A stretch of DNA of 60,073 bases from Anaerolineales bacterium (GTDB taxonomy: Bacteria; Chloroflexota; Anaerolineae; Anaerolineales; RBG-16-64-43). The notes below the pieces were generated by a model. The model was not told where the DNA came from. It did no database searches and worked only from the letters and a program-made list of their open reading frames with translations. Of this stretch, positions 41,676 to 45,799 are shown piece after piece; position 1 is the stretch's first letter; each line of letters begins with the position of its first letter. The stretch covers positions 1-60,073 of the forward strand of contig JAFGKK010000092.1 in NCBI GenBank assembly GCA_016928575.1, written 5' to 3'. A program made the position numbers and the translations under genes.

Positions 41676-43325
41676 ATGGAGAACAATCCGAAAAAAAAGA
41701 CCGTCGTCGCCGCAGCCTTGGGGGAGTGCGTACACGTAGCGGGCGTAACCAATTTTCTCCGCTTGGCGGAAACGGCTGGTTGGCGGACGGTTTTTCTCGG
41801 ACCGGCCGTCACGGTGGCTCGGCTGCTGGAGGCCGCGGCGGAGGAACGGGCTGATCTCGTCGGAGTCTCTTATCGGCTGACACCGGAAACCGGGGAACGG
41901 CTGTTGGGTCAAATGGCCGAGGCGGCCGCCGAATTGCACGAACGAGGCGTGCGATTCGTATTCGGCGGAACTCCGCCGGTGGCGGAGCGCGCCGAAAAGA
42001 TGGGTTTCTTCGAGCGCGTATTCCGCGGCGGAGAATCATCGGATGAAATCCTGACGTTTTTGCGGGGCGGGGCGGAACGGACCTCGGGAAAACTCTCATA
42101 TCCTCAAACGGCGGTCGAACGCATCCGGTGGAAAACTCCGTATCCGATCCTCCGGCACCACTTCGGCCTTCCCTCCCTGGAAGCGACTCTGGCGGGAATC
42201 AGGGACATTGCCGAAGCCGGAGCTTTGGACGTCATCTCGCTGGGAATAGACCAGGACGCGCAGGAGAATTTTTTCCACCCGGAACGCCAGGACCCGAGGC
42301 GCAAAGGCGCCGGAGGGGTGCCGGTTCGAAGCCCCGAGGACTACAGTGCGCTGTATGAGGCCGCGCGGCGCGGCAACCATCCGCTGCTGCGCACCTATTC
42401 CGGCACCGACGATTTCATCCGCCTGGCGGAAGTCTACATCGATACGATCCGGATCGCGTGGTGCGCCATCCCGCTCTTCTGGTTCAACCGGATGGACGGG
42501 CGCGGGCCGTGGGACCTTGCCGGATCCATCGCCGAACATCAGAAAGTGATGGCGTTCTACGGACGGCGCGGAATTCCGGTGGAATTGAACGAACCCCATC
42601 ATTGGGGCATGCGCGACGCGCCGGATGCGGTGTTCGTCGCCTCCGCCTTCCTGGCGGCGTATAATGCCAAGCAATTCGGCGTGCGGGATTACATCGCCCA
42701 GATGATGTTCAACAGCCCGCCGGGGCTTTCGGACGCGATGGATCTGGCGAAGATGCTGGCCGTGCTGGAAGTGACGGCGGAATTGGCCGGTTCCGATTTC
42801 CGGATCTGGCGCCAGACACGCACCGGGCTGTTGTCGTACCCGCTGGATCCGGAGGCCGCGCGCGGACACTTGGCCGCCAGCGTCTACCTGCAGATGAACC
42901 TCACGCCCGACATCCTCCACATCGTCGGGCACAGCGAGGCGGACCACGCCGCCACCGCCGAAGACGTGATCGCTGCAAGCCGGATCGCCCGGCGGGCGAT
43001 CGAAAACTCCTTGCGCGGGGCACCCGATTCGACGGCCGACCCGCGGGTCCGGGAACGGCAGGCTGAACTCGTCGATGAAACCCGGGGGACGCTGGAAGCC
43101 GTGCGCGGATTGGCGGGAAAGGGCGTGGACGATCCGTGGGCGGACGCCCGCACTCTGGAGAAGGCGGTCACGTCCGGTGTTTTGGATGCGCCCCAACTGC
43201 AAAACAACCCGTTCGGGCGAGGCGCCGTCCGCACGCGGATTGTGGAGGGCAAGTGCTTGGCGGTGGATTCGGATGGGCGTCCGCTGTCCGAGCGTAAACG
43301 GTTATCTTCGTTGCGAAAGGAGTGA
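41676..43325 (+). CDS. Cobalamin-binding domain / mutase-like TIM-barrel protein
   Basis: A 549-aa protein. Residues about 8-125 are a B12-binding Rossmann-like domain: CVHVAG matches DxHxxG with the ligand histidine kept but Asp replaced by Cys, VSYRL is in the SxL position and FGGTPP gives the GG motif. The rest (about 145-490) looks like a TIM barrel related to adenosylcobalamin aminomutases or glutamate mutase E, with PVELNEPHHWGMRDAPD and HIVGHSEADHAATAEDVI. The reaction is unknown; a carbon-skeleton or amino shift is plausible. GGAG lies 7 nt before the ATG. The next gene follows in the same frame directly after its TGA. Confidence 0.7.
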   Translation: MENNPKKKTVVAAALGECVHVAGVTNFLRLAETAGWRTVFLGPAVTVARLLEAAAEERADLVGVSYRLTPETGERLLGQMAEAAAELHERGVRFVFGGTPPVAERAEKMGFFERVFRGGESSDEILTFLRGGAERTSGKLSYPQTAVERIRWKTPYPILRHHFGLPSLEATLAGIRDIAEAGALDVISLGIDQDAQENFFHPERQDPRRKGAGGVPVRSPEDYSALYEAARRGNHPLLRTYSGTDDFIRLAEVYIDTIRIAWCAIPLFWFNRMDGRGPWDLAGSIAEHQKVMAFYGRRGIPVELNEPHHWGMRDAPDAVFVASAFLAAYNAKQFGVRDYIAQMMFNSPPGLSDAMDLAKMLAVLEVTAELAGSDFRIWRQTRTGLLSYPLDPEAARGHLAASVYLQMNLTPDILHIVGHSEADHAATAEDVIAASRIARRAIENSLRGAPDSTADPRVRERQAELVDETRGTLEAVRGLAGKGVDDPWADARTLEKAVTSGVLDAPQLQNNPFGRGAVRTRIVEGKCLAVDSDGRPLSERKRLSSLRKE

Positions 43326-43328
43326 ACG

Positions 43329-44435
43329 ATAAACCCACCGCGGAATTACGCTGTCGTCGGAGCCGGACACGGCGGGAAGGCCATGGCCGCTCACCTCTCG
43401 TTGATGGGCTGTCGGGTCGCCCTGTTCAACCGGACCGAGGACCACATCTCCGTCCTCAAGCAGCGCGGCGGAATTGAACTGGAAGCGCCGGAAGGAATCC
43501 AGCACGGGTTCGCCAAACTGGCGCGGATCACCGCGGATTTCGGCGAAGCGCTGAAAGGGGCTCAGGTGATTATGGTCGTCGTTCCGTCCTCGGCCCACGT
43601 CGACGTGGCCGCGGGGATGGCCCCGCATCTGAAATCCGGGCAGATCATCATTCTGCATCCCGGCCGGACATGCGGGGCGATCGAATTCGCCAAGGTGCTG
43701 CGCGACCAGGGCTGCCGGGCCGAGGTGACGATCGCCGAGGCCGAGACCTTTATCTACGCCAGCCGATCCGACGGACCGGCGCAAGCCAGGATCTTCCGGA
43801 TCAAAGAGGCCGTGCCGCTGGCGGCGTTGCCGTCCGTGCGCACCGCACAGGTGTTGGAGGCGATCCGGCCGTTTTATCCGCAGTACATCGACGGAATCAA
43901 CGTCCTCCACACCGGTTTGAACAACATGGGGGCGATCTTCCATCCCGCGCTGACCCTGCTGAACGCCGGGTGGATCGAGGCGACGCACGGGGATTACGAA
44001 TTCTACATCGACGGCGTCACCCCTTCGGTGGCGAGGGTTTTGGAGGTTCTGGATCGGGAAAGGGTGACGGTCGCCTCCTCGCTGGGCATCCGCGCCCGCA
44101 ACGCCATGGAATGGCTGGAACTCGCCTACAACACCACCGGGGAAAACCTGCACGAGGCCATCCATAACCAGGTGGGGTACTACGGCATCAAGGCCCCCAG
44201 CACGTTGAACCACCGCTACATCTTTGAGGACGTCCCTATGAGCATCGTGCCGATCGCCTCGCTGGGGGGGCGATTCGGGGTTTCGGTCCGCGGCATGGAC
44301 AGCATCGTTCGCCTGGCGTGCATCATCCACCGCACCGATTATTGGAAGCGCGGAAGGACGGTGGACAAACTCGGAATCGGGGATTTAAGCGTCGGCGAGT
44401 TGAACCGTTATGTCGAAGAAGGAATTCTCGAATAG
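43329..44435 (+). CDS. Opine (octopine/nopaline-type) dehydrogenase, AUA start likely
   Basis: A 368-aa NAD(P)-dependent dehydrogenase. The N-terminal Rossmann motif is GAGHGG (residues 11-16). The C-terminal octopine-dehydrogenase domain has IFHPALTLLNAGWIE (catalytic-type His), FYIDGVTPSVARVLEVLDRERV and RYIFEDVPMSIVPI. The family reductively joins an amino acid to a 2-oxo acid. The first ATG (43383) would delete the NAD motif. Between the upstream in-frame TGA (43323) and that ATG there is no ATG, GTG or TTG. AAAGGAG (43316-43322) is spaced 6 nt from ATA at 43329, the best candidate initiator. The cluster suggests a specific amino-acid conjugate as product. Confidence 0.82.
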   Translation: MNPPRNYAVVGAGHGGKAMAAHLSLMGCRVALFNRTEDHISVLKQRGGIELEAPEGIQHGFAKLARITADFGEALKGAQVIMVVVPSSAHVDVAAGMAPHLKSGQIIILHPGRTCGAIEFAKVLRDQGCRAEVTIAEAETFIYASRSDGPAQARIFRIKEAVPLAALPSVRTAQVLEAIRPFYPQYIDGINVLHTGLNNMGAIFHPALTLLNAGWIEATHGDYEFYIDGVTPSVARVLEVLDRERVTVASSLGIRARNAMEWLELAYNTTGENLHEAIHNQVGYYGIKAPSTLNHRYIFEDVPMSIVPIASLGGRFGVSVRGMDSIVRLACIIHRTDYWKRGRTVDKLGIGDLSVGELNRYVEEGILE

Positions 44436-44452
44436 GAGAGGAAAGGTTTTTG

Positions 44453-45799
44453 ATGACAGCGATCGCCGGAATTGAACGCGGCGGAAAAAAAGAACTTGTG
44501 AAACGCATGCTGGAGAAAATGGCCCACCGGGGCGGGAAGCAATGCAGAATCATCGAAAGCGGACACGCGACGATCGGGGTGGCTCCTTCCGCCGGTCAGG
44601 AATCCTCCGGGGAAATCCGCATCCAGCAGGAATTCGTCGAGGACGGATCCGGACCGGGAAGGTTTGCCCGGGCGCGGATCGCCGACGACGGTCTGGAGTT
44701 GACGCGCGATCCCGTCGGGGTCGCACCGCTTTATTACGGATGGACGGAGGCGGGCGAGCTTTGCTTCGCCTCAGAAGTCAAGGGGCTGCTTCCGGAGGTG
44801 CGCCGGATCCATGAGCTGGCGCCGGGAAGTTCCTTACGCGGAGGAAACCTCGACCACTTTTTCCGCTTGAATCCCGGAAAGGAAATCGACGATCCGCCGC
44901 AGACCGTCGCCGCCGGTCTGCGGCGCAGGCTCGAGCAAGCCGTGGAAAAAAGTCTGGCGGGCGGAAAGATCGGATCGTGGCTTTCCGGCGGTTTGGATTC
45001 CAGCTCCTTGGCCGCGCTGGCAAGCCGCCATGTGGACCGGCTTCCGACGTTCGCCGCCGGGCTGGAAAACGCGCCGGATCTGGAGTTCGCCCGGCGGACG
45101 GCGGCCTTCCTCCGCACTGATCATCACGAAGTGGTCGTCAAATCCGCCGATGTGATTGCGGCGCTGCCGGAAGTCATCTACCACTTGGAATCCTTTGACG
45201 CGCTCCTGGTGCGGTCCAGCGTCCTTAATTATTTGGTGGCGAAGGAAGCCGCCAACTTCGTTCCGGCGGTCCTATCCGGAGAAGGGGGGGATGAGCTGTT
45301 TGCCGGATACGAATATCTGAAAAGCATCGATTCCGGCAGATTGAAGGATGAATTGCTCGACATCACGGGCAGGCTGCACAATACGGCCCTGCAGCGGGTG
45401 GACCGTTGCGCCTCGGCCCACGCCACTACGCCCCACGTCTGTTTTCTGGATCCCGAGGTGGTGGAATACGCCCTGAGGATACCCGTGGAATACAAGCTGC
45501 GAAACGGGGTGGAAAAATGGATTCTCCGCGAGGCCGTCGGCGAGCTGCTGCCGTCCGAGGTGCGCCAACGCCCGAAGGCCAAATTCTGGCAGGGCGCCGG
45601 CGTGGAGGATTTGCTTGCCCGCTATGCGGAAAACAACGTGAGCTCGGAGGATTTCAAGCGCGAACGGCGTCTGCCAAACGGCTGGCAATTGAATACCAAA
45701 GAGGAGTTGCTCTACTACCGGTTGTTCCGGGAGAACTTCGGATCGGTGGAAGACCTGGCCTGGATGGGGAGGACCAAGGGCGCGCCGACAGCCTTGTAG
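44453..45799 (+). CDS. Asparagine-synthetase-like amide ligase without Cys2
   Basis: A 448-aa AsnB homologue. The N-terminal region has the Ntn-amidotransferase layout but begins MTAIAGI instead of MCGI, so the glutaminase nucleophile is missing. The C-terminal synthetase domain is intact, with the PP-loop SGGLDSS (about 183-189), SGEGGDELFAGY and a late KYKL/KWILREAV region. It should adenylate a carboxylate and then accept ammonia or an amine, possibly inside the same molecule as in beta-lactam synthetases, which also lost Cys2. A strong AGGAGAGG precedes the ATG. It is last in the three-gene cluster and ends at a terminator. Confidence 0.85.
   Translation: MTAIAGIERGGKKELVKRMLEKMAHRGGKQCRIIESGHATIGVAPSAGQESSGEIRIQQEFVEDGSGPGRFARARIADDGLELTRDPVGVAPLYYGWTEAGELCFASEVKGLLPEVRRIHELAPGSSLRGGNLDHFFRLNPGKEIDDPPQTVAAGLRRRLEQAVEKSLAGGKIGSWLSGGLDSSSLAALASRHVDRLPTFAAGLENAPDLEFARRTAAFLRTDHHEVVVKSADVIAALPEVIYHLESFDALLVRSSVLNYLVAKEAANFVPAVLSGEGGDELFAGYEYLKSIDSGRLKDELLDITGRLHNTALQRVDRCASAHATTPHVCFLDPEVVEYALRIPVEYKLRNGVEKWILREAVGELLPSEVRQRPKAKFWQGAGVEDLLARYAENNVSSEDFKRERRLPNGWQLNTKEELLYYRLFRENFGSVEDLAWMGRTKGAPTAL

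Follow-up and report, generated by a model that had tools for sequence, protein, structure and literature searches.

A B12-dependent mutase-like protein, an opine dehydrogenase, and an asparagine-synthetase-like protein lacking Cys2 are encoded side by side in a 60,073-nt stretch of DNA from an Anaerolineales bacterium (contig JAFGKK010000092.1; the whole stretch that was analyzed is referred to as the window), which raises the question of whether the three proteins act in one pathway, and what such a pathway would make. The genes appear to specify a pathway not yet described, whose product may be a protectant against salt stress.

Gene Organization

The three ORFs lie on the + strand with gaps of 3 and 17 nt (Table 1), as an earlier note made from the sequence alone had described, and its reading of the three enzyme classes agrees with the Pfam matches, namely B12-binding (1e-12, residues 9–124 of the first protein), Octopine_DH (1e-45) on the second protein, and Asn_synthase (1.5e-64) on the third. 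The surrounding genes in the window, such as those for prepilin peptidase and SecD/SecF, are unrelated. The dehydrogenase ORF contains no ATG, GTG, or TTG before its GxGxxG motif, and an ATA at 43329 aligns with the start Met of its relatives; this apparent start, in place of the ATG of the relatives, may be a rare start codon or reflect readthrough or a sequence error. Window positions 43323–43331 hold TGA ACG between the mutase and the dehydrogenase, and both genes are in the same frame.

Table 1. Coordinates of the genes and predicted functional residues of the cluster, in window positions.
Feature	Position	Strand	Basis
B12-dependent mutase-like protein, 549 aa; N-terminal B12-binding domain and glutamate-mutase-E-like barrel	41676..43325	+	Pfam, AF2 model, PDB match, hhalign
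Opine dehydrogenase, ArODH/mODH type, 368 aa	~43329..44435	+	PF02317 1e-45; 1bg6_A E 1e-70
Cys-less asparagine-synthetase-like protein, 448 aa	44453..45799	+	Asn_synthase Pfam, motifs, structure match
Codons of G16-ECVHVA-G23, counterpart of the cobalamin-ligating DxHxxG	41721..41744	+	Alignments, including to 1be1_A
Mutase catalytic barrel, residues ~141–542	42096..43301	+	Structure and profile alignment
Arg113, ArODH position 111, predicted acidic-amino-acid preference	43665..43667	+	Alignment; mutagenesis elsewhere (PMC10787698)
Gly201, ArODH position 198, predicted second specificity determinant	43929..43931	+	Alignments; PMC10787698
His205, Trp262, Arg296, and Asp301, conserved catalytic/active-site residues of the opine dehydrogenase	span 43941..44231	+	Alignments

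Linkage of the Mutase and Dehydrogenase Genes

When 84,980 species genomes were scanned, 238 relatives of the first protein emerged, of which the best 80 were kept. All of the best 80 belong to Chloroflexota, and they include the isolates Anaerolinea thermolimosa, Bellilinea caldifistulae, Levilinea saccharolytica, and Ornatilinea apprima as well as Roseiflexus MAGs; the pair is present in Roseiflexus genomes. The dehydrogenase gene is located directly 3' of the mutase gene in nearly all of these 80 loci; other genes intervene at L041, and at L066 the dehydrogenase is only 58% identical and is encoded upstream of the mutase.

The same association is found in 400 evenly drawn Chloroflexota genomes, in which dehydrogenases were counted above 600 bits and the next best ones score below 400 bits. 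The orthologous B12 protein is present in 27/400 genomes, and a 28th, G237, carries a diverged form. Every genome with the dehydrogenase (26/26) also has the B12 protein, immediately adjacent, and 26/27 hold in the reverse direction (Fisher 6e-40, with genomes that are not independent of each other). The pair spans 10 families in a patchy distribution, and as members of one genus, such as g13, differ in having it, it has apparently been gained or lost as a unit. The linkage of mutase and dehydrogenase is firm. The co-occurrence search proposed in the earlier note thus excludes, for the first two genes, that they are neighbors only in this genome; of the three-gene unit that it had described, the first two genes are the conserved part, whereas the third is not fixed, its Cys-less form occurring beside the pair in 7/80 loci.

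In one MAG, the two genes form a single 920-aa ORF (L089:5392-8154); the junction keeps an RBS-like stretch and an ATG, and the fusion was set aside as evidence because an assembly indel is equally likely. Spread of the pair by plasmids was also considered, and no plasmid match was obtained. No cobalamin or c-di-AMP riboswitch was found at Rfam gathering thresholds in eight loci or near the window, and no paper that treats glutamate mutase and opine dehydrogenase together was found in the literature searched.

The B12-Dependent Mutase-Like Protein

The structurally known AdoCbl amino-acid mutases are few, and the B12 protein represents a conserved, uncharacterized branch. The AF2 model (pLDDT 83) is most similar to glutamate mutase E, with Z-scores of 30.6 to 6h9e_B (368 residues, rmsd 3.5) and 30.3 to 1cb7_B, followed by lysine 5,6- and ornithine 4,5-aminomutases (Z 24–28), and hhalign also relates the protein to glutamate mutase E (prob 92.7, E 6e-8). 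The B12 domain corresponds to the S chain of glutamate mutase in the alignment to 1be1_A and carries CxHxxG instead of DxHxxG, in which the ligand His20 and the Gly are kept and the Asp is replaced by an invariant Cys18. The MutS-like B12 domain and the barrel fold are those of GlmE/GlmS, but the window protein joins them in a single polypeptide that begins with the B12 domain, shares 17% identity with glutamate mutase, and is paired with an opine dehydrogenase; no PF06368 match over the cut-off was found in the window's genome. Judged from these sequence and model comparisons, the B12 protein is a well-supported candidate for an AdoCbl-dependent radical mutase with the glutamate-mutase fold. 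A PLP-dependent aminomutase of the lysine/ornithine type was considered and rejected, as residues 1–124 contain no invariant Lys, and Lys8 is only nearly invariant.

The migrating glycyl part of the glutamate mutase substrate is held by R66, R149, and E171, and the acrylate part by R100 and Y177 (PMC10947579). R100 of the arginine claw aligns with Q196 of the window protein, whereas the adenosine-site E330 aligns with E421; R160/H162 and R239/Y241 lie near the counterparts of R66 and R149, where the alignment is off by two residues, and the region of E171 shows no conserved acid in the alignment. On these comparisons, the reaction type is likely shared with glutamate mutase, but the substrate is probably different.

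Diverged homologues in G054 and G237, which are 33–40% identical to the mutase and also contain the CVH motif, are joined in one polypeptide to a MutL-type domain, as indicated by a PF13941 match inside the same ORF in G237 and by sequence reading in G054. These mutases again adjoin an opine dehydrogenase gene, which they follow, and the fusion in this position provides independent support for AdoCbl chemistry and for the coupling of the two enzymes. The window's genome has a separate MutL-family gene; such genes are present in 147/400 Chloroflexota genomes, 26/28 with the mutase and 121/372 without it, an association that is confounded by ancestry because MutL is common in the phylum. The diverged mutase–MutL proteins (1264–1269 aa; L222:7209-11018 on the − strand and L223:4233-8027 on the + strand), with the octopine-dehydrogenase-like gene adjacent, reside in operons that on sequence reading encode an oligopeptide-type ABC transporter and an RpiR-like regulator, with a thiolase-like gene near L222.

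The Opine Dehydrogenase

The window dehydrogenase is homologous over its full length to Arthrobacter ArODH (1bg6_A, E 1e-70), and the Rossmann motif, the catalytic His, Arg, and Asp, and the active-site Trp are all kept in the alignments. Hot-spring mODHs, whose nearest relative is ArODH, were described in 2024 and prefer L-Asp or L-Glu with pyruvate; Arg111 and Gly198 (ArODH numbering) were shown to set this preference, their exchange switching specificity to L-Asp, and Arg35 marks NADPH acceptance (PMC10787698). The window protein has R113, G201, and R35 at these places, a likeness to the mODHs that rests on the published residue positions. Both specificity residues are invariant in the clade of this protein: Arg113 is present in 80/80 homologues and Gly201 in 75/80, the other five being truncated or missed by the pattern. 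The class assignment is well supported, and the enzyme would be an opine dehydrogenase that takes acidic amino acids and accepts NADPH.

L-Asp is a poor substrate of the published enzymes (for mODH-582, Km 25 mM and kcat 0.9/s; PMC10787698), and aspartate is thus probably a stand-in for another substrate. The main text of that study contains neither 3-methylaspartate, nor gene context, nor a specific physiological role for the mODHs. The near-exceptionless tie to a partner with measured specificity determinants makes the substrate of the mutase testable now.

The Variable Third Gene

The third protein begins with MTAIAG, in which Thr replaces Cys2, confirming the loss that the earlier note had pointed out. 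The glutamine-binding NGEIYN/SDTEV stretch is deleted, while SGGLDSS, GEGGDE, and RPKAKF are kept, and the protein falls below the NCBIfam AsnB cut-offs (308.9 of 499 and 218.2 of 267.1 bits). Having lost glutamine hydrolysis, it should use free ammonia or a substrate amine. Its fold and its SGGLDSS PP-loop, GEGxDE, and K-x-K-F motifs are nonetheless those of E. coli AsnB (1ct9), its nearest match (1e-72, Z 38.7). β-Lactam synthetase, which has a Tyr-Glu catalytic dyad and lacks Cys2 and whose substrate is an N-carboxyalkyl amino acid, N-carboxyethyl-arginine, had been invoked as a precedent. The comparison holds in that β-lactam and carbapenam synthetases are likewise AsnB-derived, with an inactive glutaminase domain, but in overall similarity both are more distant from the window protein than AsnB is (E 4e-28 and 2e-26; Z 32.2 and 29.1), and no β-lactam pathway genes are seen nearby. 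The osmolyte pathway to N-acetylglutaminylglutamine amide (NAGGN) likewise employs an amide former of the AsnB type together with an ATP-grasp ligase for a compatible solute; unlike the present gene set, that pathway has no mutase or opine dehydrogenase, and the Cys-less protein misses the cut-off of the NAGGN amidotransferase model TIGR03104 (114 of 570.1 bits).

Across the 80 loci, the slot beside the pair is occupied by a Cys-less AsnB, a normal AsnB, a D-Ala-D-Ala-ligase-like ATP-grasp protein, or nothing, an amide ligase being absent from this position in over half of the loci. Within 60 nt 3' of the dehydrogenase, 11 loci carry an AsnB-family gene and 4 carry a Ddl-like gene; the glutamine-dependent AsnB proteins keep the Cys and score above the NCBIfam cut-off. 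Relatives of the Cys-less form that adjoin the pair are 53–59% identical, and an eighth locus is truncated. Both AsnB forms stand in tandem at L042, and a Ddl-like gene accompanies a Cys-less AsnB at L069. At L041, mutase and dehydrogenase are separated by a D-glutamate-cyclase-like gene (L041:3403-4479, PF14336 1e-70), on the side of the mutase, and the Cys-less AsnB.

Genomic Neighborhood and Possible Physiological Role

Because a family-by-family comparison of neighbors is circular, its queries being drawn from the neighbors themselves, the fair comparison is a blind Pfam scan of 148 neighbors against 148 random ORFs from three complete pair-bearing genomes. The neighbors matched DUF5698/2179 (11), Asn_synthase (6), CitMHS (5, antiporters of the CitMHS/ArsB type), Na_Ca_ex (3), Na_H_Exchanger (2), CdAMP_rec (2), and Inos-1-P_synth (2), and none of these families was matched by two or more control ORFs; the counts overstate independence, as the neighbors are related by descent. 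Roseiflexus and Chloroflexus yielded no genes for ectoine or betaine synthesis (PMC7824335). The recurrence of ion antiporters and c-di-AMP receptors among the neighbors, together with the lack of known osmolyte synthesis genes in Roseiflexus, suggest that the role of the pair may be osmoadaptation, although the window's own neighbors do not show this and no ion antiporter was seen near the pair in the window.

Several individual neighbors may be recorded. The DUF5698/DUF2179 gene is the commonest, occurring in 32/80 loci (e.g., L091:1657-2235). At L055:13000-14901, a gene near the pair encodes a Na+/H+ antiporter with a fused c-di-AMP receptor domain, stand-alone c-di-AMP receptors occur at other loci (e.g., L088:5591-5890), and a mannosylglycerate-hydrolase/trehalase-type glycosidase is found in 9 loci (e.g., L079:9342-11723).

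Proposed Pathway and Alternatives

The most economical reading, which seems quite possible while falling short of probable, is that the mutase, the dehydrogenase, and the amide ligase share one acidic amino-acid scaffold and would together yield an amide-capped N-carboxyethyl amino acid. The mutase would rearrange a glutamate-like carbon skeleton into a branched, 3-methylaspartate-like isomer; the dehydrogenase would join this isomer reductively to pyruvate, giving an N-(1-carboxyethyl) acidic amino acid; and the ligase would amidate one carboxylate or close it to a lactam. The earlier note had likewise proposed a rearranged amino acid that becomes an opine and then an amide or lactam, and this chemistry fits the glutamate-mutase fold, the predicted acidic preference of the dehydrogenase, the intact AMP-forming site of the synthetase, and the D-glutamate-cyclase-like gene in one operon; the substrates and the order of the steps, like the product and its role, are what we infer. 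Glutamate itself may not be the substrate of the mutase, given Gln196 at R100 and no evident E171 acid. The product would most likely be a compatible solute or a different metabolite that serves salt and ion homeostasis. If it is an osmolyte, it would explain the salt-stress response of Anaerolineae and of Roseiflexus, and it would give a physiological role to a subclass of opine dehydrogenases so far characterized only in vitro. A bolder form of this proposal, which must be regarded as doubtful, is that an undescribed B12-dependent pathway, widespread among Chloroflexota, leads to a new class of compatible solutes, namely amide-capped N-carboxyethyl derivatives of radical-rearranged acidic amino acids, linked to control by c-di-AMP and ion antiport, and that these represent a new substrate class for the glutamate-mutase fold.

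An unlikely but coherent alternative is that the pair is catabolic, the dehydrogenase splitting an opine into pyruvate and an acidic amino acid that the mutase isomerizes for fermentation. Glutamate mutase is a fermentative enzyme in clostridia, LacI-type regulators are encoded near the main-clade pair in 14 loci, and the ABC-transporter operon of the diverged mutase–MutL pair (L222, L223), with its RpiR-like regulator and the thiolase-like gene near L222, looks catabolic, which speaks against a synthetic role. Around the main clade, however, ABC_tran is not enriched (4/148 neighbors and 4/148 controls), and the recurrent amide ligases are a biosynthetic mark.

Within a biosynthetic pathway, the order could be reversed, with the dehydrogenase preceding the mutase, whose substrate would then be the N-carboxyethyl acidic amino acid rather than the free one. 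E171 of glutamate mutase touches the substrate amine, and a corresponding region without a conserved acid, along with Gln at R100, would suit an N-substituted or amidated substrate; gene adjacency is silent on reaction order. The published dehydrogenases accept ordinary acidic amino acids, however, so neither order is required, and the reversed one is considered rather unlikely.

It is similarly improbable that the Cys-less AsnB is a mere ammonia-dependent asparagine synthetase that lies beside an unrelated pair by chance. Besides its closeness to E. coli AsnB, this reading draws on the window's genome (G000) and G447, in both of which the searches recovered no Asn_synthase-family gene besides that of the Cys-less protein, and no AsnA. 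In G000, however, a search for asparaginyl-tRNA synthetase gave no match over the curated cut-off, so free asparagine is not evidently needed for translation there, and these features of G000 taken together argue against a housekeeping asparagine role. The Cys-less form, moreover, recurs beside the pair and lies between its two genes at L041, and it is present in only 3/400 genomes, all three of which have the pair (beside it in 2/3, unlinked in G016). In another genome, G128, an asparaginyl-tRNA synthetase is present, and neither AsnA nor an Asn_synthase-family gene was found.

Opine dehydrogenases catalyze the last step of staphylopine- and pseudopaline-type pathways, but synthesis of such a metallophore by this module is highly improbable, since no nicotianamine-synthase-like or metal-transport gene recurs among the neighbors and the window dehydrogenase is of the ArODH type (PF02317), whereas staphylopine dehydrogenases belong to another Pfam family.
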